A stretch of DNA of 64,000 nt, from positions 806,001 through 870,000 of the forward strand of contig NZ_JACHIU010000001.1 in the NCBI RefSeq assembly GCF_014207705.1, written 5' to 3'. This DNA comes from Sphaerisporangium rubeum (GTDB lineage Bacteria; Actinomycetota; Actinomycetes; Streptosporangiales; Streptosporangiaceae). A program made the position numbers and the translations under genes. Below are positions 9,618 through 36,282 of the stretch, one piece after another; the stretch's first letter is position 1, and each line of letters starts with the position of its first letter. Below the pieces are notes generated by a model. The model did not search any database. It worked only from the letters and a program-made list of their open reading frames with translations, and was not told the DNA's origin.

Positions 9618-10080
9618 CCGCGCGGCGTCCGGTGCGACGTCCCCTGCGCACCGGCGCCGTGCGGATCGGTTTCAGGGGGAAAGCGTGGCCCGCGGGAGGG
9701 ACGCCGACCATCCCGCGGGTCCGGCCCCGCTCACCGTTACGGCGGAGGCCGCCGGGTGCCGACGGTACCGGCACCCTGTGGGTACCGACTCCGCCGCGCG
9801 GTGAGCGGGGCACCTTGCGGTGTCCCGCTCACCGTTGCTCTCGCTGACGGCTGTGGCGGCCCCACCACAGGCTTCTCACCATTGGTGCAGAACTATCGGC
9901 ACTGCCACCAAAAGTATGGACAGTGCAATCTAAAAGCTCCTACTGTGTCGCTCAGCACAGCCCATGTTTCACCCTCGTTTCCAATCGGCGTGGAGACGGG
10001 GACGGTGGCCGTGATCACCCCCCATGGCTCCGGCGCGACGGCGCGCGCCCTGCCTGGCACATCAGTCAGGAAGGGACAAC
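9618..10080. promoter_or_regulatory. Intergenic region: terminator and promoter of the sugar dehydrogenase gene
   Basis: No gene is supported here. The left half holds a strong hairpin (listed separately). The right half is AT-richer and carries an inverted repeat GCACTG (9899-9904) / CAGTGC (9921-9926) that could be an operator for the downstream secreted sugar dehydrogenase. The start codon at 10081 is preceded by AGGAAGGGAC. Confidence 0.45.
9799..9834 (+). terminator. Strong hairpin after the ROK gene
   Basis: Arms CGGTGAGCGGG (9799-9809) and CCCGCTCACCG (9824-9834) pair perfectly, and inside them CACC/GGTG pair around a TTGC loop. No long T-run follows, so it is a terminator-like or processing hairpin typical of GC-rich actinomycetes. 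Confidence 0.6.
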
Positions 10081-12927
10081 ATGAATCCGCACCGCTACCC
10101 CCGCCGATGGCGGGCGATCGGGGCAGCCTTATCCCTCGTGGCAGCGAGCGTCACCGCTGTCACGTCAACGGTCGTGACGGCCGCGCCGGCACAGGCGCAC
10201 CCCGTCAACGCGAACGAGTTCCAGCAAGTCACCCTCGCCAAAGGCGTGAGCGCGACGGGGGAGCCGATGTCACTCGCCGTGCTGCCGGACCGGTCGGTCC
10301 TGCACACCGCACGCGACGGCACACTCCGGCGTACGGACGCGACCGGTGTCACCAAGCAGATCGCGAAACTCAGCGTGTACTCGCACGACGAGGAAGGCCT
10401 GCAAGGCGTCGGGGTGGACCCCGGGTTCGCCACCAACCGGTACATCTACCTGTACTACGCGCCGCCGCTCAGCACCCCCGCCGGTGACGCGCCGGCGACC
10501 GGGACGTCCGCCACCTGGACCACCTGGACCGGCGTCAACCGGCTGTCGCGTTTCACGCTCAACGCCGACTTCACGGTCAACATGAGCAGCCAGGTCAACG
10601 TCCTCGACGTGCCGGCCAACCGCGGCATCTGTTGCCACGTCGGCGGCGACATCGACTTCGACGCGGCCGGGAACCTCTACCTGTCCACCGGGGACGACAC
10701 CAACCCGTTCGAGTCCGCCGGTTACTCCCCGCTCGACGAGCGCACCGAGCGCAACCCCGCCTACGACGCGCAGCGCAGCGCCGGCAACACCAACGACCTG
10801 CGTGGCAAGATCCTCCGGATCAAGGTGAACGCCAACGGGACGTACTCGATCCCGTCCGGCAACCTCTTCGCGCCGGGAACGGCGAACACCCGGCCCGAGA
10901 TCTACGCGATGGGTTTCCGCAACCCGTTCCGCCTGAGCGTCGACAAGGCCACCGGCGTCGTCTACGTCGGCGACTACGGCCCCGACGCCGGCACCACCGA
11001 CTCCGGCCGCGGCCCCTCGGGTCAGGTGGAGTTCAACCGGATCACGAGCCCCGGCAACTACGGCTGGCCGTACTGCACCGGCTCCAACAGCACCAGCGAG
11101 ACCTACAACGAGTGGAACTTCGCGACCAACAGCACCGGCGCGAAGTTCAACTGCGCCGGCGGCCCGACGAACAACTCGTTCCGCAACACCGGCCTGCAGA
11201 CCCTGCCGGCCGCGCGCGCGGCCTGGATACGGTACGGCGGCGACGCCGGCACCCCGTCGGCGTTCGGCGGCGGCAGCGAGTCGCCGATGGGTGGCCCGGT
11301 GTACCGGTACGACGCCGCGAACCCCTCGGCCACCAAGTGGCCGCAGTCGTTCGACGGCATGTACTTCGCCGGTGAGTTCGGCCGCGGCTGGATCAAGCCG
11401 ATCCACGTCAACAGTGACGGCACCCCCGGCACGATCGACACGTTCCCGTGGAACGGCAAGCAGGTCATGGACATGACCTTCGGCCCCGACGGCTCGCTGT
11501 ACGTGCTGGACTACGGCACCGGGTACTTCAACGGCGACGCGAACTCGGCCCTGTACCGGTACGACTACGTCGGCGGCGGCAACCGGGCCCCGACCGCGGT
11601 CGCGGCGGCCAGCAGGACGTCCGGCGCGGCGCCGCTCGCGGTGACCTTCTCCTCCGCCGGCTCCAGCGACCCCGACGGCGACCCCATCACCTACGCGTGG
11701 GACTTCGGCGACCAGACCACCTCGACCGCGGCGAACCCCACCAAGACCTACACCGCGAACGGCACCTACACCGCGCGACTGACGGTGCGCGACACCGCAG
11801 GCGCCACCGGTACCGCGAGCGTCACCATCACGGTCGGCAACACGGTGCCGACGGTGACGATCAACGCGCCGCCGGCCGGACAGCTCGCGTCGTTCGGTGA
11901 CACCGTGCCGTGGAGCGTGACCGTCACCGACCCCGAGGACGGCCAGATCGACTGCTCGCGCGTCACGATGGCGTACGTCATCGGTCACGACCAGCACGCG
12001 CACCACATCACCTCGCAGACCGGCTGCTCGGGAAGCATCACTTTGCCGCCGGACGGTGAGCACGACGACGCGGCGAACCTCTTCCCGATCTTCGACGCGT
12101 CCTACACCGACAAGGGTGGCCTGACCGGCAGGTCGCAGAGCATCCTGCAGCTCAGGAAGCGCCAGGCCGAGCACTACCGGACCGCGTCCGGCGTGACCCT
12201 GTTCAGCAAGACCACCGCCGAGGGTGGCCGGACCGTCGGTGACATCCACAACGGCGACTGGATCCAGTTCGACCCGTACCGCCTCACCAACGTGACGTCG
12301 TTCAGCGCACGGGTCTCCTCGGCCGGTGCCGGCGGCACGGTGCAGATCCGCACCGGTTCCCCGACGGGGACCGTGCTCGGCTCCGCGACGGTGACGCCGA
12401 CCGGTTCGTGGGAAACGTTCACCAACGTCACCGGCGCGGTGAACGGCGCCGCCGCCACCGGCACGTCGCTGTACGTCACCTTCGCCGGCTCCGGAACCGG
12501 CGCGCTGTTCGACCTGGACAGCTTCACGTTCACCACCGGCACAGCGCCGGCGGCGGGGACGATCAAGGGCCTCGGCGGCAAGTGCCTGGACGTACGTGGC
12601 GCCGCCTCCGCCGACGGCACGCAGATCCAGATCTACACCTGCAACGGCACCGCCGCGCAGACCTGGACAAGAAGCGGCCAGACCTTCCGTGCGTACGGCA
12701 AATGTCTGGACGTGTCCGGCGCGAGCACCGCAGACGGCGCTAAAGTCCAGCTCTATACCTGTAACGGTACAAACGCGCAGAATTGGACCGTCAACGCCGA
12801 CGGGACGATCCGCAGTGTGAACTCCGGCAAGTGCCTCGACGTGACCGGCGGCAACACGGCGGACAGCACGCCGGTACAGCAGATGACCTGTACCGCTGCC
12901 GCCAACCAGAAGTGGACCCTGTCGTGA
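10081..12927 (+). CDS. Secreted GSDH-type sugar dehydrogenase with PKD, CBM6-like and ricin domains
   Basis: A 948-residue exported enzyme. Signal peptide 1-39 (cleavage after AQA). Residues ~45-500 form a six-bladed glucose/sorbosone dehydrogenase propeller (SLAVLPDRSVLHTARDG, EGLQGVGVDPGFATNRYIYLYY, RGKILRI, YAMGFRNPFRL, GNYGWPYC). A PKD domain follows (~501-587), then a linker with HDQHAHH, a CBM6-like domain (~695-820) and a C-terminal ricin-type lectin with three QxW repeats (~827-948). Such enzymes oxidise sugars outside the cell, often with PQQ; no PQQ synthesis genes are in this window. Followed 17 bases later by the ThuA gene, so they are one unit. Confidence 0.85.
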   Translation: MNPHRYPRRWRAIGAALSLVAASVTAVTSTVVTAAPAQAHPVNANEFQQVTLAKGVSATGEPMSLAVLPDRSVLHTARDGTLRRTDATGVTKQIAKLSVYSHDEEGLQGVGVDPGFATNRYIYLYYAPPLSTPAGDAPATGTSATWTTWTGVNRLSRFTLNADFTVNMSSQVNVLDVPANRGICCHVGGDIDFDAAGNLYLSTGDDTNPFESAGYSPLDERTERNPAYDAQRSAGNTNDLRGKILRIKVNANGTYSIPSGNLFAPGTANTRPEIYAMGFRNPFRLSVDKATGVVYVGDYGPDAGTTDSGRGPSGQVEFNRITSPGNYGWPYCTGSNSTSETYNEWNFATNSTGAKFNCAGGPTNNSFRNTGLQTLPAARAAWIRYGGDAGTPSAFGGGSESPMGGPVYRYDAANPSATKWPQSFDGMYFAGEFGRGWIKPIHVNSDGTPGTIDTFPWNGKQVMDMTFGPDGSLYVLDYGTGYFNGDANSALYRYDYVGGGNRAPTAVAAASRTSGAAPLAVTFSSAGSSDPDGDPITYAWDFGDQTTSTAANPTKTYTANGTYTARLTVRDTAGATGTASVTITVGNTVPTVTINAPPAGQLASFGDTVPWSVTVTDPEDGQIDCSRVTMAYVIGHDQHAHHITSQTGCSGSITLPPDGEHDDAANLFPIFDASYTDKGGLTGRSQSILQLRKRQAEHYRTASGVTLFSKTTAEGGRTVGDIHNGDWIQFDPYRLTNVTSFSARVSSAGAGGTVQIRTGSPTGTVLGSATVTPTGSWETFTNVTGAVNGAAATGTSLYVTFAGSGTGALFDLDSFTFTTGTAPAAGTIKGLGGKCLDVRGAASADGTQIQIYTCNGTAAQTWTRSGQTFRAYGKCLDVSGASTADGAKVQLYTCNGTNAQNWTVNADGTIRSVNSGKCLDVTGGNTADSTPVQQMTCTAAANQKWTLS

Positions 12928-12944: not shown

Positions 12945-14651
12945 ATGCGCAGACTCCTGTCAGGCGTGAGCGCCGCGCTGGCACTCGCCGCGTCCGTGCT
13001 CCACGCGGCACCGGCCCTGGCCGCCGACGCGCCGTACGACGTCCTGGTGTTCTCCAAGACCGCCGGGTTCCGGCACGACGCGATCCCGGCCGGCATCCAG
13101 GCGATCCAGCAGCTCGGCGCGGCCAACAGCTTCACGGTGACCGCCACCGAGGACGCCGCGGCGTTCACCACGGGGAACCTCGCGCAGTACGAGGCCGTGG
13201 TGTTCCTCAACACGACCGGGGACGTGCTCAACGCGGCGCAGCAGACCGCGTTCGAGTCCTACGTCCGAGGCGGCGGCGGTTACGTGGGTGTGCACGCCGC
13301 CGCCGACACCGAGTACGACTGGTCGTTCTACGGCCAGCTCGTGGGCGCGTACTTCGCGAGCCACCCGGCGATCCAGCAGGCCGGCTCCAGGACCGAGAAC
13401 CGCGCGCACCCGGCGACGGCGCACCTGCCGCAGACGTGGACGCGCACCGACGAGCTGTACAACTACCGCACCAACCCGCGGTCCACGGCGCGGGTGCTGG
13501 CGACGCTGACCGAGTCCACCTACTCCGGCGGTTCCATGGGGTCCGACCACCCGATCACGTGGTGCAAGACCATCGACGCCGGCCGGTCGTTCTACACCGG
13601 GTTCGGCCACACCCAGGCGTCGTACGGCGAGACGGCGTTCCGCAGCCAGCTCCTCGGCGGCATCCGGTACGCCGCCAAGCGCGCCAAGGCGGACTGCCGT
13701 CCCGAGACCGGGTACACCGCGATCTACGACGGCGCCACCGCCGGCTGGTCGCAGTCCGGCCCCGGGTCGTTCACCAACAGCGACGCGACGCTCACCTCCG
13801 TCGGCGGCATGGGCCTGTACTGGTACAGCGCCAAGCAGTACGCCGCCGGCTACTCACTGAAGGCGGACTGGCGTGTCACCGGGGACAGCAACTCCGGGGT
13901 GTTCGTCGGCTTCCCCAACCCCGGCGGCGACCCCAACGTCGCGGTCAACCAGGGGTACGAGATCCAGATCGACGCCACCGACTCGGCGGACCGCACCACC
14001 GGCTCGATCTACTCCTTCAAGTCGGCCGACATCGCGGCACGTGACGCCGCGCTGAACCCGCCGGGTGAGTGGAACACCTTCGAGATCCTCGTCGAGGGTC
14101 AGCGGCTGCGCGTGTACCTCAACGGCTCGCTGATCAACGACTTCACCAACACCGACCCGAACCGCAACCTCGACGGCTACGTCGGCCTGCAGAACCACAG
14201 CTCGGCCGACCAGGTCGCGTTCCGCAACGTCCGCGTCAAGGAGCTCGGTTCGCAGCCCCCCGCGGCGAACCTGGCGCTGAACAGGCCGGCGACGGCGTCG
14301 AGCACCGAGTCGGCCGCCTACCCGGCGTCGTACGCGGTGGACGCCTCGGCGTCGACCCGCTGGTCGAGCGCGTTCGCAGACCCCCAGTGGATCCAGGTGG
14401 ACCTCGGTGCCACGTACACCGTGACCCGGGTCCGGCTGGTGTGGGAGGCCGCGTACGCCACGGCGTACCAGATCCAGACCTCGGCCAACGGCTCCTCGTG
14501 GTCGACGGCCAGGTCCGTCACCGGCGGAAACGGCGGTGAGGACGACATCACCGGACTGAGTTCCTCCACCCGGTACGTACGCATGTACGGCACGGCCAGA
14601 GGGACACCGTACGGCTACTCATTGTTCACCTTCGAGGTCTACGGCGGCTGA
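12945..14651 (+). CDS. Secreted ThuA / DUF1080 (3-keto-disaccharide hydrolase-like) / F5-8C protein
   Basis: A 568-residue exported protein. Signal peptide 1-26 (cleavage after ALA). ThuA domain ~30-250 (LVFSKTAGFRHDAI, YVGVHAAADTEYDW, GGSMGSDHPITWC, RSFYTGFGH). DUF1080 concanavalin-like domain ~255-435 (TAIYDGATAGWSQ, GYEIQIDA, WNTFEILVEGQRLRVYLNG); this family includes 3-keto-disaccharide hydrolases. A discoidin/F5-8C carbohydrate-binding module ends it (~440-568). Start ATG 12945 has GGAGAGGA upstream. Together with the preceding dehydrogenase it suggests extracellular oxidation of a glycoside followed by cleavage of the keto-sugar. Confidence 0.83.
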   Translation: MRRLLSGVSAALALAASVLHAAPALAADAPYDVLVFSKTAGFRHDAIPAGIQAIQQLGAANSFTVTATEDAAAFTTGNLAQYEAVVFLNTTGDVLNAAQQTAFESYVRGGGGYVGVHAAADTEYDWSFYGQLVGAYFASHPAIQQAGSRTENRAHPATAHLPQTWTRTDELYNYRTNPRSTARVLATLTESTYSGGSMGSDHPITWCKTIDAGRSFYTGFGHTQASYGETAFRSQLLGGIRYAAKRAKADCRPETGYTAIYDGATAGWSQSGPGSFTNSDATLTSVGGMGLYWYSAKQYAAGYSLKADWRVTGDSNSGVFVGFPNPGGDPNVAVNQGYEIQIDATDSADRTTGSIYSFKSADIAARDAALNPPGEWNTFEILVEGQRLRVYLNGSLINDFTNTDPNRNLDGYVGLQNHSSADQVAFRNVRVKELGSQPPAANLALNRPATASSTESAAYPASYAVDASASTRWSSAFADPQWIQVDLGATYTVTRVRLVWEAAYATAYQIQTSANGSSWSTARSVTGGNGGEDDITGLSSSTRYVRMYGTARGTPYGYSLFTFEVYGG

Positions 14652-14655
14652 GCGA

Positions 14656-14694
14656 CCGGGCCGGCCGGGAGGTCCCCCCTCCTGGCCGGCCCGG
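14656..14694 (+). terminator. Hairpin terminator after the ThuA gene
   Basis: CCGGGCCGGCC (14656-14666) pairs with GGCCGGCCCGG (14684-14694), and GGGAGG/CCTCCT extends the stem inside. It separates the secreted sugar pair from the ebo-like operon starting at 14748. Confidence 0.65.
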
Positions 14695-14747
14695 CCTGAT
14701 CCGTCGCGACCACCGCACAGCACAGAAAAAAAGGCAAGGGAGATTTC

Positions 14748-15887
14748 ATGGCAACCGGCATCTGGTTGATCGGAGCGCGGGGATCGGTCGCGGTGACCGG
14801 CCTCGTCGGGGCGGCGGCGCTGAGAGCGGGGCTCGCCGAACCGCTCGGGTGCGTCACCGAGCTGCCCGAGCTGCGCTCCCCGGCTCTGCCCGCCCTCGCC
14901 GATCTCGTCTTCGGTGGCCACGACGTGGCGGACACGCCACTGGTCAAGAAGGCCGAGTCCCTGGTGGCGGCCGGGGTGCTGCCGGCCGGGATCACCGCGG
15001 CGCTCGGCGACGAGCTCGCCGCCGCGGAGCGGGAACTGCGGCCGGTGCCGGTGGCCGGCACGCAGGCCGACACGGCCCGCCTGATCGCCGCCGACATCGA
15101 GGACTTCCGGCGGCGGCACGACCTCGAACGCGTCGTGGTGGTCAACGTCGCCTCCACCGAGCCGGCCGTGGCGCCGCACCCCGGCCACACCGACCCGGCG
15201 TCCCTCGCCGAAGCCCTCGCCTCCACCGACACGGTGCTGCCGGCGAGCTCGCTGAACGCCTACGCCGCCTTCACCGCGGGCTGTCCCTTCGTCGACTTCA
15301 CGCCGTCCACCGGGACCCGCCTGCCGGCGCTGGCCGAGCTGGCCCTCCAGGCCGGGGTGCCGTACGCCGGGAACGACGGCAAGACCGGTGAGACGCTGGT
15401 GAAGTCGGTGCTCGCGCCGATGTTCGCCATGCGCCACCTGCGGGTGCGCACGTGGTCGGGGACCAACCTGCTCGGCGGCGGCGACGGCGCCACCCTCGCC
15501 GACCCGGCGGCCAACGCCGCCAAGACCGCGAGCAAGCAGCGGGTGCTGTCGGAGACCCTCGGGTACCGGCCGGAAGGCACCAGCCTGATCCAGTACGTCG
15601 ACGACATCGGCGACTTCAAGACCGCGTGGGACCTCATCACGTTCTCGGGGTTCCTCGGCACCACCATGCGGATGGACTTCACCTGGCACGGCTGCGACTC
15701 GGCGCTCGCCGCACCGCTGGTGCTGGACCTCGCGCGGCTCACCGCCGCCGCGCACGCCGCCGGCCGGTCCGGGCCGCTCACCGAGCTGGCGTTCTTCTTC
15801 AAGGACCCGCTGGGGGACGTGCCGCACGCGCTGCACGAGCAGTGGGCCGCGCTGACCGGGTTCGTCCGGGGGCTGTCCGATGTTTGA
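14748..15887 (+). CDS. Inositol-3-phosphate synthase family protein (first gene of ebo-like operon)
   Basis: A 379-residue NAD-dependent cyclase-type protein. The Rossmann start GIWLIGARGSVA, the NVASTEPA and SSLNAYAAFTAGCPFVDFTPS segments, and GNDGKTGETLVKSVLAPMF (Lys-rich catalytic loop) are all features of the myo-inositol-1-phosphate synthase family. In characterised ebo clusters the cyclase position is taken by EboD, a 3-dehydroquinate-synthase-like enzyme; here a different NAD-dependent sugar-phosphate cyclase heads the operon. Whether it makes inositol phosphate or another carbocycle is open. Start ATG with GGGAG upstream; the next gene overlaps its end by eight bases. Confidence 0.75.
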   Translation: MATGIWLIGARGSVAVTGLVGAAALRAGLAEPLGCVTELPELRSPALPALADLVFGGHDVADTPLVKKAESLVAAGVLPAGITAALGDELAAAERELRPVPVAGTQADTARLIAADIEDFRRRHDLERVVVVNVASTEPAVAPHPGHTDPASLAEALASTDTVLPASSLNAYAAFTAGCPFVDFTPSTGTRLPALAELALQAGVPYAGNDGKTGETLVKSVLAPMFAMRHLRVRTWSGTNLLGGGDGATLADPAANAAKTASKQRVLSETLGYRPEGTSLIQYVDDIGDFKTAWDLITFSGFLGTTMRMDFTWHGCDSALAAPLVLDLARLTAAAHAAGRSGPLTELAFFFKDPLGDVPHALHEQWAALTGFVRGLSDV

Positions 15888-16746
15888 GCGCACCAAGCGG
15901 CGCGGGCCTGACTGGCGAGCGCTCGCGGAACTGGTGCGTGCTCCCGCCGCGCTGTCGGTCCCCGGTGACACGGTGGCCGGGGCCGCGGCGTCCGGTGCGC
16001 TCGGCCGGGCCACCCCCGGCCTGATCGCGGCGTCGGTGTGCCTGTACTGGGGCGGGATGGCCGCCAACGACTGGGCCGACCGGGAGCTCGACGCCGTCGA
16101 GCGGCCCGAGCGGCCCATCCCGTCCGGAAGGATCACCGCGCGGCAGGCACTCGGCGTGGCGGCCGGGCTCACCGCCGTCGGCACGGGGCTCGCGCTGCTC
16201 GCGGGGGGACGCCGCGCCGCCGCGGTCGCGTTGCCGCTGGCCGGCGCCGTGTGGGCCTATGACCTGCGGGCCAAGAACACACCGTTCGGGCCCGCCGTGA
16301 TGGCCGCGTGCCGGGGGCTTGACGTGCTGCTCGGCGCCTCCCCCGGCCGTACGGTGGAGGCGGTCCCGGCGGCGCTCACCGTGGCCGCGCACACCTACAC
16401 CGTCACCGAGCTCTCGCGGCGCGAGGTCAGCGGCGCCAACGCCACGCTCCCCAAGGTCACGCTCGCCGGTACGGCCGCCGTCGCCGCGTCGGCGGCGGGA
16501 CGGCGGCCGGGACCGGCCGCCGCGCTGGCCCTGTGGTACGCCACCCGGTACGGCGCCGCGCAGGTGGACGCCGTCGCCGACCCCTCGCCTGGCCGCATCC
16601 GCGCGGCCGTCGGGGCCGGCATCACGGGGCTGCCGTTGCTGCAGGGTGCGCTGACGGCCCGCGCCGGGTCGCCGGTCGCGGGGCTCGCCGTGGCCGCCGC
16701 GGCGCCGCTCGGCCGGCGGCTGGCCAAGGTGGTGTCGCCGACGTGA
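15880..16746 (+). CDS. eboC: UbiA-type prenyltransferase-like membrane protein (EboC)
   Basis: A 288-residue multi-pass membrane protein with the UbiA signature NDWADRELD (Asn63-Asp71, NDxxDxxxD) and a second, shortened Asp motif at YDLRAKN; around seven to nine hydrophobic segments. SCO-type EboC proteins have this form. It would attach or move a prenyl or polyprenyl-phosphate-linked group at the membrane. The start ATG lies inside the preceding gene, and its stop overlaps the next start (GTGA at 16743), showing translational coupling. Substrate unknown. Confidence 0.8.
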   Translation: MFERTKRRGPDWRALAELVRAPAALSVPGDTVAGAAASGALGRATPGLIAASVCLYWGGMAANDWADRELDAVERPERPIPSGRITARQALGVAAGLTAVGTGLALLAGGRRAAAVALPLAGAVWAYDLRAKNTPFGPAVMAACRGLDVLLGASPGRTVEAVPAALTVAAHTYTVTELSRREVSGANATLPKVTLAGTAAVAASAAGRRPGPAAALALWYATRYGAAQVDAVADPSPGRIRAAVGAGITGLPLLQGALTARAGSPVAGLAVAAAAPLGRRLAKVVSPT

Positions 16747-17609
16747 CCGTCCGCTTCGGGTACGGCACCAACGGCTTCACCAACCACCGGCTGCCTGAGG
16801 CGCTGGCCGTGCTGGCCGACCTCGGGTACGAAGGCGTCGCGCTGACCCTCGACACCGGACACCTGGACCCGTTCGCGCCGGGCCTCGCCAAGCGCACCGC
16901 CGAGGTGGCGACGCTGCTCGGCCGGCACGGGCTGTCGGTGGTGATCGAGACCGGCGCGCGGTACCTCATGGACCCGTGGCGCAAGCACGCGCCGACGCTG
17001 CTGGACGACGACCCGGCGCGCCGCCTCGAATACCTGCGCCGCGCGGTGCGCGTCGGCGCCGACCTCGGCGCCGAGGCGGTGTCGTTCTGGTCGGGGGTGG
17101 CCCCGCCTGGCGTGCCGGACGTCTGGGAACGGCTGGTGCGCGGGTGCGCCGAGATCGTGGAGACCGCCGAGCTGGCCGGGGTGACGCTCGGGTTCGAACC
17201 GGAACCCGGCATGCTGGTCGCCGACATCGAGGGCTGGCGCCGGCTGCACGCCGCGCTCGGCTGTCCGCCGCATTTCGGCATCACGCTCGACATCGGCCAC
17301 TGCCGCTGCCTGGAGCCGCTGCCGGTCCCCGAGTGCGTCGAGGAGGTCGCGGCCCACCTGGTGAACGTGCAGATCGACGACATGCGCCGCGGGGTGCACG
17401 AGCACCTGGAGTTCGGCACCGGTGAGATCGACTTCCCGCCGGTGCTCGCCGCGCTGAGCGCCGCCAGGTACCGCGGCCTGGTGGCCGTGGAACTGCCACG
17501 CCACGCGCACGACGCGCCGGGGGTGGCGTCCCGTTCCATCGACTTCCTGCGCCAGGCGGCCAAGCAGGCGGCCGGCGCTCACGACGACCGAGACGAGGAC
17601 CGATGGTGA
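16743..17609 (+). CDS. Sugar phosphate isomerase/epimerase-family TIM barrel protein
   Basis: A 288-residue xylose-isomerase-like TIM barrel: FGYGTNGFTNHRLPEALAVLADLGYEGVALTLD, later GFEPEPGMLV (metal Glu), GITLDIGHC (Asp/His ligands), VQIDDM and VAVELPRHAHDA. Predicted divalent-metal isomerase or epimerase acting on a sugar or polyol. Start GTG 16743 overlaps the EboC stop by four bases and is preferred over upstream starts inside that gene. It resembles but does not replace the second barrel protein (EboE) later in the operon, so this operon has two such enzymes. Confidence 0.78.
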   Translation: MTVRFGYGTNGFTNHRLPEALAVLADLGYEGVALTLDTGHLDPFAPGLAKRTAEVATLLGRHGLSVVIETGARYLMDPWRKHAPTLLDDDPARRLEYLRRAVRVGADLGAEAVSFWSGVAPPGVPDVWERLVRGCAEIVETAELAGVTLGFEPEPGMLVADIEGWRRLHAALGCPPHFGITLDIGHCRCLEPLPVPECVEEVAAHLVNVQIDDMRRGVHEHLEFGTGEIDFPPVLAALSAARYRGLVAVELPRHAHDAPGVASRSIDFLRQAAKQAAGAHDDRDEDRW

Positions 17610-18211
17610 CCCTTGACGACCTGCGTGCCGCGCTGGCGGACAACGGCTCGCTCGCCGAGGACGGGTGGCTCGCCGGGGCCCTCGGCGTCGTGGCGGCCGA
17701 CCCGAGCGCGCTCGGCGGCCTGTTCCCCGCGGTCGGCAGACGCTGCGGACGCGGGCCGCTGCCGGGGGTGCCGGGCTGGACGGTCGATGAGGCGGCGCGG
17801 ACCCTGCTGCTCGCCGCGCTGCCGCCGGACGTGCTCGCCGGCGAGGTGGACGACGTCTACCGGTACGGCGACGCCGCCGAGAAGCTCGCCGTGCTGCGCG
17901 CGCTGCCGCTGCTGCCGGTCGGCGACACGGCCGTGTCGCTGCTGCACGACGCGCTGCGCACCAACGACACCAGGCTCGTCACGGCGGCGCTCGGCCCGTA
18001 CGCCACCCGCCTCGACGACGCGGCCTGGCGGCAGGGGATCCTCAAGTGCGTGTTCATGGGGGTGCCGCTGGCCGACGTGCACGGGGTGACCGAGCGCGCG
18101 GACGCGAGTCTCGCCGCGATGCTCGACGCCTTCGCGCGGGAGCGCCGCGCGGCGGGCCGTGAGGTCCCCGCCGACGCGCTCGCCGTTCTGGAACACGCCA
18201 AGGAGAACTGA
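17603..18211 (+). CDS. eboA: EboA-family protein
   Basis: A 202-residue, almost wholly helical soluble protein with the EboA pattern: WTVDEAARTLLLAALP, YRYGDAAEKLAVLRALPLLP, DTAVSLLHDALRTNDTRLVTAALGPYATRLDD, and WRQGILKCVFMGVPLADVHGV. The alpha-helical repeat suggests a scaffold for the EboB and EboC proteins rather than an enzyme; that role is inference. The start overlaps the preceding stop by seven bases and its stop shares a base with the next start. Confidence 0.8.
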   Translation: MVTLDDLRAALADNGSLAEDGWLAGALGVVAADPSALGGLFPAVGRRCGRGPLPGVPGWTVDEAARTLLLAALPPDVLAGEVDDVYRYGDAAEKLAVLRALPLLPVGDTAVSLLHDALRTNDTRLVTAALGPYATRLDDAAWRQGILKCVFMGVPLADVHGVTERADASLAAMLDAFARERRAAGREVPADALAVLEHAKEN

Positions 18212-19062
18212 TGCGAATCTTCGATCCACATATCCACATGACGTCCCGCACCACCGACGACTACGAGAAGATGGCGGCGGCCGGGGTGAAGGCGGTGGTG
18301 GAGCCGGCCTTCTGGCTCGGTCAGCCCCGCACCGGCCCTGGTTCCTTCACCGACTACTTCGACTCGCTGGTCGGCTGGGAACCGTTCCGCGCCGCGCAGT
18401 TCGGGGTGAAACATCACGCCACGATCGCCTTGAACCCCAAGGAGGCGAACGACCCCCGCTGTCGTCCCGTGCTCGACCTGCTGCCGCGCTATCTGGCCAA
18501 GGACGGCGTGGTCGCGGTCGGCGAGGTCGGGTACGACTCGATGACGCCGGAGGAAGACGAGGTCTTCGCCGCGCAGCTCGCGCTCGCCATCGACCACGAC
18601 CTGCCGGCGATGGTGCACACCCCGCACCGCGAGAAGGCGCGCGGTGTCGAGCGCAGCATCGACGTCATCGCCGAGTCCGGCATCGACCCCGGCCGTGTGG
18701 TCCTGGACCACCTCAACGAGGTCACCGTGGCCCGCGCCAAGGACGCCGGCCTGTGGATGGGGTTCTCGATCTACCCCGACACCAAGATGTCGCCGCCGCG
18801 CATGGTGAAGATCATGCGTGAGTACGGCCTGGAGCGGGTGCTGGTCAACTCGGCCGCCGACTGGGGCCGGTCGGACCCGCTGCTGACCCGGACGACCGCC
18901 GACGCGATGCTCGCCGACGGCTACACCGAGGACGACGTGGACCTCGTCCTGTGGCGCAACCCCGTGGAGTTCTACAGCCAGTCGGGACGGCTCGACCTGT
19001 CCGACACCGGCACCGGGGACGCCACGTTCGCCGGCAACTCGATCCTGCGTGGCGGAAGCTGA
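18211..19062 (+). CDS. eboB: TatD-like metal-dependent hydrolase (EboB)
   Basis: A 283-residue amidohydrolase-fold protein of the TatD group. It begins RIFDPHIHM (His-x-His metal site), has VAVGEVGYDS (metal Glu), MVHTPHREK, VVLDHLNE, and NSAADWG (final Asp). Unlike nuclease-type TatD proteins, EboB members are linked to ebo metabolite export. It follows EboA with a one-base stop/start overlap. Cytoplasmic; no signal peptide. The substrate is unknown. Confidence 0.82.
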   Translation: MRIFDPHIHMTSRTTDDYEKMAAAGVKAVVEPAFWLGQPRTGPGSFTDYFDSLVGWEPFRAAQFGVKHHATIALNPKEANDPRCRPVLDLLPRYLAKDGVVAVGEVGYDSMTPEEDEVFAAQLALAIDHDLPAMVHTPHREKARGVERSIDVIAESGIDPGRVVLDHLNEVTVARAKDAGLWMGFSIYPDTKMSPPRMVKIMREYGLERVLVNSAADWGRSDPLLTRTTADAMLADGYTEDDVDLVLWRNPVEFYSQSGRLDLSDTGTGDATFAGNSILRGGS

Positions 19063-20168
19063 TGCACCTGAGTTACTGCACCAACGTGCACCCCGCCGAG
19101 GACCTGGCCGGCATCGTCACGCAGCTCGACACCTACGCCGTCCCCGTGCGGGAACGGCTGGAGTCGGACGTGCTCGGCCTCGGGTTGTGGCTGGCGGCGC
19201 CGGTGGCGGCCGAGCTGGCGGCCGACCAGGACGCGCGCCGCCGCCTGCGGCGCGAGCTGGACGCGCGCGGCCTCGAAGTGGTGACGCTCAACGGTTTCCC
19301 CTACAGCGCCTTCCAGGCCCCCGTCGTCAAGCACGCCGTCTACCACCCCGACTGGACGACGCGGGAACGCCTCACCTACACCCTGGACCTGGCCCGCGTG
19401 CTCGCCGACCTCATGCCGGACGACGCCGCACGCGGCTCGATCTCCACGCTGCCGCTCGCCTGGCGCGAGCCGTGGGACGCCGAGCGCGCGGACGCCGCGT
19501 ACCGCAACCTGGACGAGCTGGCGCGCGGCCTCGCCGGGATCGCCGCGACCACCGGCCGCACGATCCGCGTGGCCTTCGAACCGGAACCCGGCTGCGTCAT
19601 CGAGAACACCACGCAGGCCGCCGGGCTGCTGTCCGGCGTGGACACCGAATGGCTCGGCGTGTGCCTGGACCTCGCGCACCTGGCCTGCGCCTGGGAGGAC
19701 CCGGCCGCCGCGCTCGGCCGGCTGCGCGCCGCCGGGCTCCAGGTGGTCAAGGTGCAGCTCTCGGCGGCCCTGGAGGCGGCCGACCCGGTGGCGGCCCGCG
19801 ACGTGCTCGCGTCGTACGCCGAGCCGCGGTTCCTGCACCAGACCCGGTCGGCCTTCGACGTCGCGGCCGACGACCTGGACGAGGCGCTGGAACGCGGGCT
19901 GCCGGGCCCGTGGCGCGTGCACTACCACGTGCCGCTGCACGCCGAGCCGGTCGCGCCGCTCACCTCGACGGCGCCGGTGCTCCAGGCCGCCGTACGCGAA
20001 CTGCTCGCCGGGCCGGAACCGGCCTGCGACCACTTCGACGTGGAGACCTACACATGGGGTGTGCTCCCCCCGGAGCAACGACCCCAGGATGCCGCCGGTC
20101 TGGCGGCCGGCATCGCGGCCGAGATGGCCTTCGCTCGTTCCCTGCTCGCCACGGAGGTGGCCCGTTGA
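19062..20168 (+). CDS. eboE: EboE-type TIM-barrel protein
   Basis: A 368-residue xylose-isomerase-like barrel with the EboE N-terminus MHLSYCTNVHPAEDLAGIVTQL, followed by VTLNGFPYSAFQ, VKHAVYHPDWTTRERLTYT, VAFEPEPGCVIENT and CLDLAHLAC. These are diagnostic of 'metabolite traffic protein EboE'. Start ATG 19062 shares a base with the preceding TGA. In cyanobacteria the ebo genes are needed to move precursor molecules to the periplasm; the biochemical role of EboE is not established. Confidence 0.85.
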   Translation: MHLSYCTNVHPAEDLAGIVTQLDTYAVPVRERLESDVLGLGLWLAAPVAAELAADQDARRRLRRELDARGLEVVTLNGFPYSAFQAPVVKHAVYHPDWTTRERLTYTLDLARVLADLMPDDAARGSISTLPLAWREPWDAERADAAYRNLDELARGLAGIAATTGRTIRVAFEPEPGCVIENTTQAAGLLSGVDTEWLGVCLDLAHLACAWEDPAAALGRLRAAGLQVVKVQLSAALEAADPVAARDVLASYAEPRFLHQTRSAFDVAADDLDEALERGLPGPWRVHYHVPLHAEPVAPLTSTAPVLQAAVRELLAGPEPACDHFDVETYTWGVLPPEQRPQDAAGLAAGIAAEMAFARSLLATEVAR

Positions 20169-21544
20169 GTCCGTTGGTGGTCCTCGATGTCGTCGGTCTC
20201 ACGCCGCGGCTGCTCGAACACATGCCGAAGCTGCGCAAGGTGGCCGAGCAGGGTTTCCAGGCGCCGCTCGGCACCGTGCTCCCCGCCGTCACGTGCTCGG
20301 TCCAGTCGACGTTCCTGACCGGTGAGACCCCGGCGGGACACGGCATCGTCGGCAACGGGTGGTACTTCCGCGACCTCGGCGAGGTGCTGCTGTGGCGCCA
20401 GCACAACGCGCTCGTCGGCGGCGACAAACTGTGGGACGCGGTGCGCCGCCTCGACCCCGGCTACACCGTGGCCAACATCTGCTGGTGGTACGCCATGGGG
20501 GCCGACGTCGACTGGACGGTCACCCCGAGGCCCATCTACTACGCCGACGGCCGCAAGGAACCGGACTGCTACACCGACCCCCCCGAGCTGCACGACGAGC
20601 TGACCGCCGCGCTCGGCCCGTTCCCCCTGTTCACCTACTGGGGTCCGACGGCCGCCATGCCGTCGTCCCGGTGGATCTGCCGTGCCGCCGAACAGATCAT
20701 GGCGACGCACAACCCGGACCTGACCCTGGTCTACGTCCCCCACCTCGACTACGACCTGCAGCGGTTCGGCCCCTCGCGTTCCGAGGCCGACACCGCGGCG
20801 GCCGAGCTGGACGAGGTGCTCGCGCCGCTGCTGGACGCCGCCGCGGCGCGCGGCGCGACCGTGGTCGTGCTGTCGGAGTACGGCATCACCGACGTCAGCC
20901 GGCCGGTGGGGATCAACCGGGCCCTGCGCGCGGAGGGCCTGCTGAAGGTCTACCGCCAGGACGGCATGGAGTACCTGGACCCCTGGACGTCCCGGGCCTT
21001 CGCCGTCGCCGACCACCAGATCGCGCACGTCTACGTGCGCGACCCCGGGGACATCCCGGCCGTGGCCAAGCTGTGCGCCGCGCTGCCAGGCGTCGCCGAG
21101 GTCCTCGACGAGGAAGGCAAGGCCGCGAACGGCCTGGACCATCCGCGCTCCGGTGAGCTGGTCCTGGTCGCCGACCCCGACGCGTGGTTCACCTACTACT
21201 ACTGGCTGGACGACGCTGCGGCCCCCGACTTCGCGCGACTGGTGGAGATCCACCGCAAGCCCGGCTACGACCCCGCCGAGCTGTTCTTCGACCCCGCCGC
21301 GCCGCTGGCCGCCAAGCGCCGCGCGGCGACCGCGCTGGCCCGCAAGAAGCTCGGCATGCGCTACATGATGAGCGTGGTCGGCCTCGACGCGGGAGCCCAC
21401 GCCGTGCGGGGGTCCCACGGCCGCCTCCCCGCCGACCCCGCCGACGCTCCGGTGCTGCTGTGCTCGGACCCTTCGGCGGCGCGGCCGGAGTTCGCGGCCA
21501 CGGACGTGAAGGACTTCCTGTTGTCCCTCACCGGCCGGTCGTGA
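20165..21544 (+). CDS. eboF: Alkaline phosphatase/phosphodiesterase-superfamily protein (EboF)
   Basis: A 459-residue nucleotide pyrophosphatase/phosphodiesterase-like enzyme. Metal and nucleophile motifs: VVLDVVGLT (Asp), AVTCSVQSTFLTGETPAGHGIVGNGWYF (catalytic Thr in TCS), PHLDYDLQRFGP, VVVLSEYGITDV and DHQIAHVY. No signal peptide, so it acts in the cytoplasm. Start TTG 20165 overlaps the EboE stop by four bases, making it the last gene of the coupled operon. It would hydrolyse a phosphate mono- or diester, perhaps the product of the operon cyclase. Confidence 0.83.
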   Translation: MSPLVVLDVVGLTPRLLEHMPKLRKVAEQGFQAPLGTVLPAVTCSVQSTFLTGETPAGHGIVGNGWYFRDLGEVLLWRQHNALVGGDKLWDAVRRLDPGYTVANICWWYAMGADVDWTVTPRPIYYADGRKEPDCYTDPPELHDELTAALGPFPLFTYWGPTAAMPSSRWICRAAEQIMATHNPDLTLVYVPHLDYDLQRFGPSRSEADTAAAELDEVLAPLLDAAAARGATVVVLSEYGITDVSRPVGINRALRAEGLLKVYRQDGMEYLDPWTSRAFAVADHQIAHVYVRDPGDIPAVAKLCAALPGVAEVLDEEGKAANGLDHPRSGELVLVADPDAWFTYYYWLDDAAAPDFARLVEIHRKPGYDPAELFFDPAAPLAAKRRAATALARKKLGMRYMMSVVGLDAGAHAVRGSHGRLPADPADAPVLLCSDPSAARPEFAATDVKDFLLSLTGRS

Positions 21545-21583: not shown

Positions 21584-22807
21584 TCAGGCCTCGTCGGGCC
21601 GGAGTTCCGGCGGCCGCGGAGCGTCGATCTGCCGCCAGGTTCTCCTGCCGACGAGCGGCACCAGCGTGGTGACGAAACAGAGCACCGCCGTGAGCACGAT
21701 CAGCGGCGTGAACCCCAGCACTCCGATCCCCAGTCCTGCGAGCAGACTCCCGAGCGGCATCCCCGCGAACGCCGCACCCGTCGCCACGCCGAACACCCGC
21801 GCGTGCAGGCGCTCCGGCACCCGGTCGTACATCACCGCGCTGATGATCGGATTGGCCGCGGCGAGCCCCAGCCCCGCCACGAACATCACCGCGGTGACGA
21901 ACACCACCGAGTCGCTGAGCGCGAGCGCGAGGAACCGCGGCGCTCCCCCCACCACGAACCCCACGGTCAGCACCGCGAGCTTCGGCACGCGGTGCGCGTA
22001 CGCGACCAGTCCCGCGTTCCCCGCCAGGGCCCCGAGCGCGAAGGCCCCGCTGCACAGCCCGAGCGCGACCGGCGACCCCACCACCTGCCGGGCCCAGACC
22101 GGGATGTAGACCGACAGCGCCGCCGTGTCGAACAGGTTGATCGCGAACATCATGAGCACGATGGCGAGGATCAGCCGGTCCCGCCGCAGGTGGTCGACCC
22201 CGTTCGCCAGCGCCGTCAGGTACGGCTCCCGCTCGGCCGCCACCCCCCGCGTCCGCACCGTCCCCGCGATGAGCCCGGCGCACAGCAGGAACGACACCGC
22301 GTCCAGCAGGATCACCCCGGGAGCCCCCAGCCACACGATGAGCACCCCGGCCACCGGGCCTCCCACCAGCGCGCCGAACCGCGCCACCCCGTCGTACAGC
22401 GCCGTGGCCCGCGTCAGCTCAAGACCGCTTCCCTCCACCGCCGCCGGCAGCAACACCCGTTTGGCGATGTCACTGACCCCGCGCGCGGCCCCGACGACCA
22501 CGACCAGGCCCCCGAGCACCCCGATTCCCCGGTGGTACAGGAACGGGATCGCCACCATCGCCGCGAAACTCACCAGGTCGGCGAGCACGGAAGCCCGCCG
22601 CGCGCCGATCCGGTCCACCACCGGGGCCCCGAAACTCCCCGCCACCACGTACGGAACCGTCTCCAGGGCCGCGACGACCCCCGTCAGCGCCGCACTTCCC
22701 GTCGTCGTCAGCACCAGCCACGGCAACGCCACCAGCGACATACGGCTACCGGTGATCGAGACCGCCTCGGCGGCCAGGTAACCCGCCAACGCGGTACGAC
22801 GCCCCAT
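21584..22807 (-). CDS. MFS transporter
   Basis: About 407 residues with twelve predicted membrane segments; MFS_3/DHA-like exporter pattern with VDRIGARRASVLADLVSF (loop 2-3 motif) and VARFGALVGGPVAGVLI. ATG 22807 is chosen because GGAAGAGG lies just upstream; GTG 22825 is an alternative. It runs convergently to the ebo-like operon, ending 39 bases from EboF, and is not obviously part of it. Substrate unknown, probably drug or metabolite efflux. Confidence 0.82.
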   Translation of the reverse strand: MGRRTALAGYLAAEAVSITGSRMSLVALPWLVLTTTGSAALTGVVAALETVPYVVAGSFGAPVVDRIGARRASVLADLVSFAAMVAIPFLYHRGIGVLGGLVVVVGAARGVSDIAKRVLLPAAVEGSGLELTRATALYDGVARFGALVGGPVAGVLIVWLGAPGVILLDAVSFLLCAGLIAGTVRTRGVAAEREPYLTALANGVDHLRRDRLILAIVLMMFAINLFDTAALSVYIPVWARQVVGSPVALGLCSGAFALGALAGNAGLVAYAHRVPKLAVLTVGFVVGGAPRFLALALSDSVVFVTAVMFVAGLGLAAANPIISAVMYDRVPERLHARVFGVATGAAFAGMPLGSLLAGLGIGVLGFTPLIVLTAVLCFVTTLVPLVGRRTWRQIDAPRPPELRPDEA

Positions 22808-22961
22808 CCGAGCCTCTTCCGTCACGGTCTTGTGCGAGTCCGTGCGATTCTGAGTCGCTCAGCGGGACTTAAACCTACTCAACGGATGAACACCCCGACC
22901 GTCACATCGCCGTACCCGAGCACACCACCGCGCGCGACGGTGGTGTGCTCGGCTCACGTGC

Positions 22962-24056: not shown

Positions 24057-24193
24057 AGCGAATTTGTTCGATTAAAAGTCCCCTGTTGTCTTTTGGGCGT
24101 CGATGGGGATGCCCTCGCCGAGGAAGAACCGGGCGGCCGGACCACCGGACGCACGTCATACAAATCCTTTTTGTTTCGGTGAGGTTTCAGGTA

Positions 24194-25486
24194 GTGGTAC
24201 AACCGGCGATGATTCGCGCTCCATTGACCTTCGGGCAGCTCTCCCTGTGGCGGTCCATCCAGGGACTGTCACCGGAGGCGTGCAACCTTCCACAGACATG
24301 GACCGTTCCCGACGGCGTGAGCCTCGCCTCGGTCGAGGAGGCGCTCGCGGCGCTGGAGGATCGTCACGAGTCACTGCGCACCCGCTACGAGCCCGACGGG
24401 GAGCACGACCTGGTGCAGGCCGTGTGGCCGGCCGCGCCTGTCCGCCTGGACACGGTCGAGGCGGACGGCGACGCGGACCAGGTGGCGCAGGCGGTCACCG
24501 AGCGGGCCGGGGCCGAGGCCTTCGAGCTCGCCAAGGACCGGCCCTGGCGCGCGTGCGCCGTCACCGCGCGGGGAGCCCCGGTCCTGCTGGTCATCTGCTT
24601 CCACCACATCGCCGTCGACGCGTGGGCCATCAACCAGTTGCGGCAGGAGTTCCTGCTGCTGGTGGACGGACTGCGCCTGACCGAACCCGCGCCGAACGGC
24701 CGCGACCTCGCCGCCGAGCAGTGGTCGGCGGCCAGGGAACGGCGGCGCACGGCCGCGCGCAGGTTCTGGACCGGCGTCTTCGAGCAGGCACCCCCGATGG
24801 AGCGGGACCACGGCCTGGACGCGCCGGACGGGCCGCGGCCCCTGTCCACCCGCTGGGCCAGGCTCGGCTCCAAAGAGGCGGCCGACGCCGCCGGCCGGAT
24901 CGCCGGCCGGCTGGAGGTCTCGCTGCCGTCGGTCGCGCTCGCCGCGTTCTGCCTGGCGCTGCACCGCCGCACCGGCCGTGACCGGCTGCTGGTCGCCGTC
25001 TACGCGCACAACCGCAGCGACCCGCGATGGGAGACGCTGGTCGCCGCGCAGAACCAGATCGTCCCGCTGCTGGTCGAGCCACGGGACGGGGAGGACTTCG
25101 GCGAGCTGGTGCGCCGCGTCCACTGGGACTCGGTCCGGTCCTACCGGCACAGCGCGTACAACGTGGACGACGTGCTGGAGGCCGGCCGCGCCTACGGCTA
25201 CCGCGGCTCGGTGAACGGCTCCTTCGCGGGATCGGTCAGCGGCTTCTTCCGCTACTTCTTCAACTACCTCGGCGCTTACCAGGAGGAACACACCTCCGTG
25301 GACGAGGAGATCCGCACCGGCACCGTGGGACGCAACATCGGCGCTCCGCTCTACCTGCAGGTGCAGGCAGGAGAGGCACTGACCTGCACCCTGCGCGAGA
25401 ACTCGACCGGCACCGGTTACGACGAGGTCACCGGGTTGCTCCTGCTCATGCGCGACATCCTGGTCGCCGCCGCGGGCCCGGAGTAG
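24194..25486 (+). CDS. Stand-alone condensation-domain protein
   Basis: A 430-residue protein that is a single NRPS-type condensation domain: TFGQLSLW near the start, then the catalytic HHIAVDAW (about 137-144; HHxxxDx with Ala in place of the usual Gly), and RWARLGSKEA, FCLALHRRTGRDRLLVAVYAHNR. No adenylation or carrier domain. GTG 24194 is chosen because GGTGAGG lies nine bases upstream; ATG 24209 is an alternative. It would join a carrier-bound acyl group to an amine or alcohol, presumably using the ACP-like protein encoded at 29364. First gene of the cluster. Confidence 0.82.
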   Translation: MVQPAMIRAPLTFGQLSLWRSIQGLSPEACNLPQTWTVPDGVSLASVEEALAALEDRHESLRTRYEPDGEHDLVQAVWPAAPVRLDTVEADGDADQVAQAVTERAGAEAFELAKDRPWRACAVTARGAPVLLVICFHHIAVDAWAINQLRQEFLLLVDGLRLTEPAPNGRDLAAEQWSAARERRRTAARRFWTGVFEQAPPMERDHGLDAPDGPRPLSTRWARLGSKEAADAAGRIAGRLEVSLPSVALAAFCLALHRRTGRDRLLVAVYAHNRSDPRWETLVAAQNQIVPLLVEPRDGEDFGELVRRVHWDSVRSYRHSAYNVDDVLEAGRAYGYRGSVNGSFAGSVSGFFRYFFNYLGAYQEEHTSVDEEIRTGTVGRNIGAPLYLQVQAGEALTCTLRENSTGTGYDEVTGLLLLMRDILVAAAGPE

Positions 25487-25551
25487 GCCGCGACCCGCGC
25501 TCACCCCGGCGGCCCTGCCGGATCGTCGCCTGTGAACCATTGGGGGTCCCG

Positions 25552-34860: not shown

Positions 34861-34911
34861 CACACTGCCGCCACCCAGTGGCGCACCCCCTCGTGAGGAG
34901 AAGCCGTGCAC

Positions 34912-36282
34912 ATGTCCCCGATCCCCGTCCCCCCACCCGGCACGAAAGGCCGCTCGTCCCCCCTCCTCCCCACCCTCGTCGCGCTGATCCTTGCGCTGAC
35001 CTGCATGGTCGTCCTGCCGGCCCCGTCCCGCGCCGCCGCCTGCGGCACGGCCGACGCCGCGCTCGGCAGGCCCGCCACCGCGTCATCCACCGAGAACGCG
35101 ACCTTCCCCGCCTCGGCCGCCGTGGACGGCGACGCCGGAACGCGCTGGTCGAGCGCGTTCGCCGACCCCCAGTGGATCCAGGTGGACCTCGGCTCCGTCC
35201 AGTCCGTCTGCCAGGTCGTGCTGAGCTGGGAGGCCGCCTACGCGCGCGCCTTCCGTATCGAGGTGTCGGGAAACGGTAGCTCCTGGACCTCGATCTACTC
35301 CACGACCACCGGCACCGGCGGCACCCAGACCCTCGGCGTCACCGGCTCCGGCCGCTACCTGCGCGTGTACGGCACCACCCGCGCCACCGTCTACGGCTAC
35401 TCGCTGTGGAGCCTCACCGTGCGCACCGACGGCACCGGCCCGACGCCGACCCCGACCCCGCCGGACGCGTTCTGGGGCGACACCTCCTCCATCCCCGCCG
35501 CGCGCAACGTCGTCATGCTGAAGATCCTCAACCGCACCAACGGCCGGTACCCGGACTCGCAGGTCTACTGGAGCTACAACGGCCAGGTGCGCTCGATCGC
35601 CGAACAGCCGTACTTCGACATGCCGGCCAACACCGCGGGCCGCATGTACTTCTACGTCGGTTCGCCGAACAGCCAGTACTACGACTTCATCGAGTTCACC
35701 GTCGGCCCCGCGGTGTTCAACGGCAACACCACCCGCGTGGACGCCTTCGGCCTGAAGCTCGCCATGCGGCTGCACGCGCGCGACGGCTACGACGTGGCCG
35801 TGGGGGAGGACTACGCGACCTTCGCCGAGTCCCGTGAGGCGACGTTCCAGCGGTTCGTCAATGAGGTCCCCGCCGAGTTCAAGCCCCTGGCCCAGGTGCA
35901 GGCCCCGTACCGCATCCCCGCACCGGGCAACGCCGCGATCTTCCAGCCCGGGGGCCAGTACGCGAACTACTTCACCGGCTACGCCGCGCAGAACGGCGTC
36001 AACGCCACCACCGCGCAGGTGACCGGCTGCGCCGGCCCCCTCTCACAGTCCCCCAAACTGTGCGCCGCGCTCAACCGCCACGTCGCCGGCCTCTCCGACG
36101 CGCAACAGTCCGACCCGTCCCAGTACTACAAGGCGGCCCCCGCCAACCACTACGCCAGGTTCTGGCACGACCACGCGCTCGGGAAACGCGCCTACGGCTT
36201 CCCCTATGACGACTACGCCGACCAGTCCTCCTTCATCTCCCACGCCAATCCCCAGTACCTGCTGATCGCCGTGGGCTGGTAA
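34912..36282 (+). CDS. Secreted GH64 beta-1,3-glucanase with F5/8C module
   Basis: A 456-residue exported enzyme. Signal peptide ~1-38 (TLVALILALTCMVVLPAPSRAAA). An F5/8 type C (discoidin) module at ~40-170 is followed by a short Pro/Thr linker (GPTPTPTPPDAFW) and a glycoside hydrolase family 64 domain to the end: FNGNTTRVDAFGLKLAMRLHARDG, ESREATFQRFVNEVPAEFK, GAFxG-like and FWHDHALGKRAYGFPYDDYADQSSFISHANPQYLLIAVGW, the last being diagnostic. It hydrolyses laminarin-type and fungal-wall beta-1,3-glucans. GTG 34906 is an alternative start; GAGGAGA precedes both. Confidence 0.85.
   Translation: MSPIPVPPPGTKGRSSPLLPTLVALILALTCMVVLPAPSRAAACGTADAALGRPATASSTENATFPASAAVDGDAGTRWSSAFADPQWIQVDLGSVQSVCQVVLSWEAAYARAFRIEVSGNGSSWTSIYSTTTGTGGTQTLGVTGSGRYLRVYGTTRATVYGYSLWSLTVRTDGTGPTPTPTPPDAFWGDTSSIPAARNVVMLKILNRTNGRYPDSQVYWSYNGQVRSIAEQPYFDMPANTAGRMYFYVGSPNSQYYDFIEFTVGPAVFNGNTTRVDAFGLKLAMRLHARDGYDVAVGEDYATFAESREATFQRFVNEVPAEFKPLAQVQAPYRIPAPGNAAIFQPGGQYANYFTGYAAQNGVNATTAQVTGCAGPLSQSPKLCAALNRHVAGLSDAQQSDPSQYYKAAPANHYARFWHDHALGKRAYGFPYDDYADQSSFISHANPQYLLIAVGW

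Follow-up and report, generated by a model that had tools for sequence, protein, structure and literature searches.

Organisation of the operon

The stretch of DNA analysed here, called the window, comprises 64,000 nucleotides (C1:806001-870000) of the complete 7.5-Mb genome of an actinomycete, Sphaerisporangium rubeum. At positions 14748-21544 of its + strand lie seven genes with no gaps between them, and all six junctions overlap by 1-8 bases (Table 1). The gene order is MIPS-EboC-ISO-EboA-EboB-EboE-EboF, where MIPS is a myo-inositol-1-phosphate-synthase-like protein, ISO is a xylose-isomerase-like protein, and the other five are homologues of proteins of the ebo operon. On account of the six overlapping stop/start junctions the genes are taken to be one transcription unit, and that they form one real operon is, as far as sequence can tell, well supported. 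A first-pass annotation of the window had given the same coordinates and a single-operon reading, which these junctions bear out. Of 17 further actinobacterial loci that were examined, nearly all show this order, with ISO and EboA fused in two cases (L035 and L126), so the arrangement is not a matter of chance.

A sugar-phosphate cyclase, EboD, is part of the published ebo operon (PMC5133447). Of the six-gene definition given there, EboA, B, C, E and F and their clustering are all found in the window. EboD was looked for and is absent, and for this reason the locus is not classed here as a canonical six-gene ebo operon.

Table 1 Features of the ebo locus and its upstream neighbours (positions in the window)
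Feature	Position	Strand	Basis
Gene 1, MIPS-like; proposed replacement of EboD	14748-15887	+	PF07994, PF01658
Gene 2, EboC-type UbiA prenyltransferase, NCBIfam SCO3242 family	15880-16746	+	NF045897
Gene 3, ISO, xylose-isomerase-like TIM-barrel isomerase/epimerase	16743-17609	+	PF01261
Gene 4, EboA, all-helical, probable scaffold	17603-18211	+	NF035938; AlphaFold2 model
Gene 5, EboB, TatD-like metallo-hydrolase	18211-19062	+	PF01026; BLAST
Gene 6, EboE, TIM-barrel protein	19062-20168	+	NF035939
Gene 7, EboF, type I phosphodiesterase/nucleotide-pyrophosphatase family	20165-21544	+	PF01663; BLAST
Shine-Dalgarno-like AAGGGAG ahead of the first gene	14736-14742	+	Sequence
Hairpin, 17-bp, G+C-rich, no T-run, between ThuA gene and operon	14656-14694	+	
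Predicted secreted glucose/sorbosone-dehydrogenase beta-propeller with PKD, CBM6 and ricin-lectin domains	10024-12927	+	PF07995, PF18911, PF03422, PF00652
ThuA + 3-keto-disaccharide-hydrolase + F5/8 type C protein	12945-14651	+	PF06283, PF06439, PF00754

Identity of the Ebo proteins

Curated family models place three of the proteins firmly in ebo-related families. EboE scores 425 bits against NF035939 (cut-off 250), the EboA domain 161 bits against NF035938 (cut-off 50), and the EboC-type prenyltransferase 371 bits against NF045897, the 'SCO3242 family' (cut-off 260). Two stricter models are not reached: EboA scores 90 bits against the EboA_family model (cut-off 320), and gene 2 scores 140 bits against the strict EboC model NF035940 (cut-off 250), which is still its second-best family. 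The prenyltransferase motif ND..D...D is invariant among the EboC relatives and intact in gene 2. The closest solved relative of EboC is digeranylgeranylglyceryl phosphate (DGGGP) synthase, which makes a prenyl ether on glycerol phosphate.

EboB and EboF have no curated Ebo model, and were assigned using Pfam, their position, and BLAST against annotated ebo clusters. EboB matches PF01026 (TatD) with 50 bits and is 65-81% identical to the TatD gene at the same place in the operon of other actinobacteria; BLAST and a tree also relate it to the EboB of ebo clusters in EboD-bearing bacteria. EboF matches PF01663 (Phosphodiest) with 215 bits, is 58-84% identical to EboF from other actinobacterial clusters, and groups with other EboF proteins in the tree. 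The ebo assignment proposed in the first pass therefore stands. Placement of the proteins outside the ebo families would have spoken against it, but EboE, the EboA domain and the prenyltransferase fall firmly within ebo-related families.

AlphaFold2 generates an all-helical model for EboA (pLDDT 97). A comparison of this fold with the PDB gave no significant match (best E 0.32), with a weak similarity to HEAT-like helical repeats. EboA is probably a scaffold.

It is worth adding that a conserved, shorter EboE-like paralogue is present in the same genome (L027, C1:7340262-7340933), outside any ebo cluster. Such paralogues, seen in about ten genomes of the same family, score 169-192 bits over the first 242 of 379 positions. 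A lone EboE gene also lies within a type II polyketide cluster on a Streptomyces plasmid (L043:8971-10149).

The first and third genes

Gene 1 contains both Pfam MIPS domains, PF07994 (170 bits) and PF01658 (102 bits). Its best solved relative is the enzyme of Archaeoglobus fulgidus (1U1I, E 1.4e-69), and all seven of the catalytic positions checked in that enzyme are kept (D210, D246, K259, K263, K291, D317 and K352), as they are in all the ebo relatives tested. The structure of the mycothiol-type INO1 (1GR0) gives merely E 1e-5. Gene 1 was also considered as the mycothiol INO1 itself and rejected: it scores 28 bits against TIGR03450 (cut-off 638), and the genome has a separate, canonical INO1 at C1:65951-67000 (686 bits).

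ISO matches PF01261 with 124 bits. Residues E152, D183, H186 and E250 are invariant, and this Glu-Asp-His-Glu set probably binds a metal.

Absence of EboD in the sampled actinobacteria

EboD was searched for using the model NF004852, which has a cut-off of 333 bits; the annotated EboD proteins of ebo clusters score 544-571 bits. Nothing above the cut-off was found in any of 297 sampled Actinomycetota genomes. In the genome of the window the best cyclase other than AroB reaches 201 bits, and the search for an EboD elsewhere in it returned only aroB and this EEVS-like cyclase (C1:599163-600263). The latter, of 416 residues, is neither AroB nor EboD by the curated cut-offs and is perhaps EEVS-like, which suggests a separate cyclitol pathway in this genome.

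All 13 genomes of the same sample that have an EboE above the cut-off have a PF07994-type MIPS close by. A second sample consisted of 297 Actinomycetes genomes, few of them shared with the first. Here EboE is above the cut-off in 76 genomes, 71 of which also have a PF07994 MIPS, at a distance of 2.6-5.7 kb for 69 of the 79 EboE places, while PF07994 without EboE occurs in only two genomes. The Fisher p for the association is about 1e-59, a value that is descriptive only, since related genomes do not count as independent cases. A closer look was taken at the nine genomes in which no MIPS adjoins EboE. In five of them EboE stands alone, away from any ebo cluster, and in two more the operon is cut off by the end of the contig. 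Of the remaining two, one keeps a partial MIPS at the expected place and a complete copy elsewhere, and the other has a cluster without MIPS or ISO but a MIPS elsewhere. MIPS is thus present in each of the 71 sampled Actinomycetes genomes that have a genuine ebo cluster.

That MIPS and ISO replace EboD in the actinobacterial ebo operon is thus well supported. The first-pass annotation had described an ebo operon with a new first gene and an added isomerase. Both genes are indeed there, as the MIPS-like and the xylose-isomerase-like protein, but they are not extras: they stand where other phyla have EboD, whose absence had been overlooked. Nor is the arrangement unusual. It is the standard and common actinobacterial form of ebo, being present in 71 of 297 Actinomycetes genomes.

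Other phyla

The converse comparison used 80 non-actinobacterial EboE loci drawn from 84,980 genomes. These are the loci that best matched an alphaproteobacterial query, and phyla distant from the query are therefore under-sampled. Among the 67 loci that have EboD and EboE, plasmid loci included, none has MIPS and none has ISO. ISO was met only in the company of MIPS, and none of the MIPS loci examined has EboD.

The evidence from Gemmatimonadota and haloarchaea comes from one Gemmatirosa replicon and a handful of haloarchaeal plasmids. The Gemmatirosa replicon (L125) carries ISO, MIPS, EboC, EboF and EboB, with EboE divergent. Its EboB clusters with EboD-type proteins of Herpetosiphon and Deinococcus (support 100; it is 74% identical to the Herpetosiphon protein), and its EboF falls with an EboD-type protein of Rokubacteria (support 94), both being distant from the actinobacterial proteins. 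No EboD was found on the replicon, to which the search was confined. Since its EboB and EboF branch inside EboD-type families, MIPS and ISO here sit in an EboD-type background, and this implies that EboD was exchanged for MIPS and ISO more than once.

Plasmids of Halocatena, Halobaculum and Natronococcus encode a MIPS 43-45% identical to gene 1, together with an EboF-like protein, a TatD/EboB-like protein (41-45%), two ISO-like proteins and a UbiA protein. Where scanned, the best family of the UbiA protein is EboC, with 178-197 bits (cut-off 250), far above other UbiA families except the sister family SCO3242. These plasmid clusters have no EboA and no clear EboE, and are ebo-like and not full ebo operons. 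The 2016 study covered seven bacterial phyla, and in the sections considered here it does not mention archaea (PMC5133447). Two further haloarchaeal loci may be noted. Haladaptatus (L183:622-15103) has an ebo-like cluster that lacks a neighbouring MIPS and is bordered by genes for DUF1080, Gfo/Idh/MocA, mannonate dehydratase and additional isomerases, and Halomarina (L169) has a haloarchaeal-type MIPS outside any ebo-like cluster.

MIPS and ISO also occur together, with Gfo/Idh/MocA, YcaO and a PIG-L deacetylase, on plasmids of Roseomonas (L170:7872-17050, with an additional GT4 glycosyltransferase) and Hymenobacter (L171:7818-16519). The ISO of this cluster is 46% identical, and the cluster is reminiscent of a mycothiol-like pathway with YcaO. 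Co-occurrence in this unrelated cluster argues for a functional link between MIPS and ISO.

Boundaries and neighbourhood

The operon begins 96 bases after the ThuA gene, and this gap holds the 17-bp hairpin. Its fold has z = -3.4, none of 200 shuffled sequences being equally stable, and it is possible that it marks the transcription end of the upstream genes. A scan for consensus promoters and terminators gave no match, and in particular no T-tailed terminator. An operon reaching upstream into the ThuA and dehydrogenase genes was considered and not adopted, because of this gap and hairpin, although the neighbourhood is conserved. The dehydrogenase gene is probably not co-transcribed with the operon. 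At its 3' end the operon faces a convergent MFS transporter gene (21584-22825).

ThuA is also found near six of the 17 other actinobacterial ebo loci. Genes for the glucose/sorbosone-dehydrogenase beta-propeller were counted by BLAST at 20 per Mb around EboD-type loci and 28 per Mb around actinobacterial loci, and by Pfam at roughly 1-2 per Mb genome-wide in 30 genomes; the enrichment is approximate, as two counting methods are compared and the 30 genomes were partly picked for such neighbours. The enrichment suggests that the ebo pathway is often accompanied by an extracytoplasmic protein that oxidises sugars; in one cluster on a Streptomyces plasmid a ScyD/ScyE-family protein occupies the place of the dehydrogenase.

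Further along the window, a stand-alone non-ribosomal peptide synthetase condensation-domain protein is followed by a double ATP-grasp ligase with a LAL_C2 domain (24146-28023). This looks like a small peptide biosynthetic cluster beside the ebo operon and the MFS exporter. A second ThuA-like region, at 34906-36282, is 60% identical over 121 residues to the ThuA beside the operon.

A proposed pathway

On the basis of these observations we hypothesise that the operon is a MIPS-type variant of the ebo pathway, whose ring-forming step differs and whose product is a prenylated cyclitol. We regard this as probable, though by no means assured. What the sequences show is the gene content, the overlaps, the loss of EboD, the linkage of MIPS and ISO, the conserved catalytic residues and the recurrence in other lineages; the substrates, the product and any role in the membrane or in export are what we infer. 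The MIPS-like enzyme would cyclise a hexose 6-phosphate, probably glucose 6-phosphate, in an NAD+-dependent and redox-neutral reaction giving an inositol-type cyclitol phosphate. It would thereby take over the ring formation done elsewhere by EboD, a dehydroquinate-synthase-like cyclase whose presumed substrate is sedoheptulose 7-phosphate. ISO may isomerise or epimerise the cyclitol or its precursor, so that MIPS and ISO form the unit standing in for EboD. EboC, the membrane prenyltransferase, would then attach a prenyl chain, EboB, EboE and EboF would modify or dephosphorylate the intermediate, and EboA would probably keep the complex assembled in the membrane. The result would be a small prenyl-cyclitol lipid that works at or across the membrane, as the mutants of Nostoc suggest: all ebo mutants there lack scytonemin, and transport of its precursor to the periplasm has been proposed (PMC6282210).

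The hypothesis that the ebo product is an isoprenoid cyclitol goes back to the 2016 study (PMC5133447). The operon received its name in that year and has had no product assigned to it, and for the cyclitol half the idea leaned on EboD. Its replacement by an unrelated cyclitol-forming enzyme gives the idea independent support. Because the ring-forming step differs, it is plausible that the metabolite differs from that of other ebo pathways.

Several points weigh against the proposed pathway. To our knowledge no substrate or product has been established for any Ebo protein. The sole EboC relative to have been assayed, from a flavobacterium, farnesylated quinolines in vitro and not cyclitols (PMC9235831). 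The products also need not match, since EboD and MIPS probably form different rings, C7 and phosphate-free for EboD, C6 and phosphate-bearing for MIPS. Homologues of MIPS can have other activities, as in 6k96, a distant relative of gene 1 described as a 'five-membered-cyclitol-phosphate synthase'. A single origin of the actinobacterial ebo MIPS has a weak support of 40 in the tree. Finally, a few clusters have no intact adjacent MIPS (L024, L209, where it is partial, L212 and L037). The genomes of the first three hold a MIPS elsewhere, L024 being a second cluster in a genome that has another cluster with MIPS; L037 is a degraded cluster in another class.

An explanation that leaves the ebo core unchanged is that MIPS and ISO are accessories, which supply extra inositol or tailor the product, the EboD step being lost or provided by another cyclase. 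The genome does hold the second sugar-phosphate cyclase and the canonical INO1 described above. That cyclase, however, is below the EboD cut-off and about 220 kb away, and with MIPS present in every cluster-bearing Actinomycetes genome sampled and absent from all 67 EboD-type loci, and the same exchange seen in Gemmatirosa, we consider accessories unlikely. It is similarly doubtful that the operon makes an archaeal-like, inositol-containing isoprenoid ether lipid, with EboC acting like DGGGP synthase on inositol phosphate and the product being a membrane lipid and not an export carrier or secreted metabolite. The nearest solved relatives, DGGGP synthase for EboC and an archaeal enzyme for MIPS, would fit such a product, as would the related clusters in haloarchaea, but known ether-lipid routes offer no step for EboB, EboE or EboF, the operon has no CDP-alcohol phosphatidyltransferase, and the scytonemin-export phenotype is left unexplained (PMC6282210).

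Alternatively, the operon could act in sugar breakdown with the adjacent secreted dehydrogenase and the ThuA/3-keto-disaccharide hydrolase, in which case MIPS and the TIM barrels would be catabolic. Near both types of ebo locus, dehydrogenase-type genes are commoner by a factor of about ten or more, and ThuA, 3-keto-disaccharide-hydrolase-type or Gfo/Idh genes also flank the haloarchaeal clusters. Every cluster nevertheless has a committed membrane prenyltransferase, which points to biosynthesis; about half of the actinobacterial loci do not have these neighbours, and between ThuA and gene 1 lies a strong hairpin. A catabolic role therefore seems very unlikely.

A wider scheme can also be proposed, although we lean slightly against it. 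EboD and MIPS with its isomerase may be interchangeable, non-homologous modules of one widespread pathway, spanning cyanobacteria, plastids, actinobacteria and halophilic archaea, in which a prenylated cyclitol lipid carries or processes compounds across the membrane; an undescribed archaeal MIPS-type form would then exist. With EboD replaced by MIPS, the first step becomes open to test in the genetically tractable Streptomyces, on a substrate as common as glucose 6-phosphate. The replacement also suggests that the functions of MIPS paralogues in haloarchaea merit re-examination.

Comparison with known systems

Parts of the operon are already known: eboE, the EboA domain and the SCO3242-family prenyltransferase are named by NCBI, and actinobacterial fusions of EboA with an isomerase-like domain are noted in the 2016 study (PMC5133447). 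In the open-access literature we found nothing that links MIPS to ebo, states its mutual exclusion with EboD, or describes an archaeal form; the word 'inositol' is not in the main ebo papers, and SCO3240-3243 appear only in two transcriptome papers. What appears to be new is the interpretation of genes 1 and 3, with MIPS and ISO in the place of EboD.

The eboA-F operon of eustigmatophyte plastids, Bacteroidetes, cyanobacteria and others (Yurchenko et al. 2016, PMC5133447) shares with the window a tight operon of EboA, B, C, E and F and a core built on a membrane prenyltransferase. The window differs in having MIPS and ISO and no EboD, and in the order MIPS-C-ISO-A-B-E-F. The five-gene cluster of Nostoc punctiforme likewise has eboA, B, C, E and F with eboD outside the cluster, but its eboD is retained close by, neither MIPS nor ISO is described for it, and the window has no scytonemin genes (PMC6282210). 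In S. coelicolor, SCO3242 ('putative transferase') and SCO3243 ('myo-inositol phosphate synthase') are listed with the CDA cluster, and no link to ebo is drawn (PMC3610822). Judged by description, these consecutively numbered genes resemble the prenyltransferase-family and MIPS genes of the window, and the NCBI family is named after SCO3242. The mycothiol-type actinobacterial INO1 belongs to the same superfamily as gene 1, which scores just 28 bits against that family. The A. fulgidus enzyme is homologous to gene 1 over its whole length and shares the catalytic residues checked; unlike gene 1, it is a housekeeping enzyme for lipids and solutes, outside any ebo operon.

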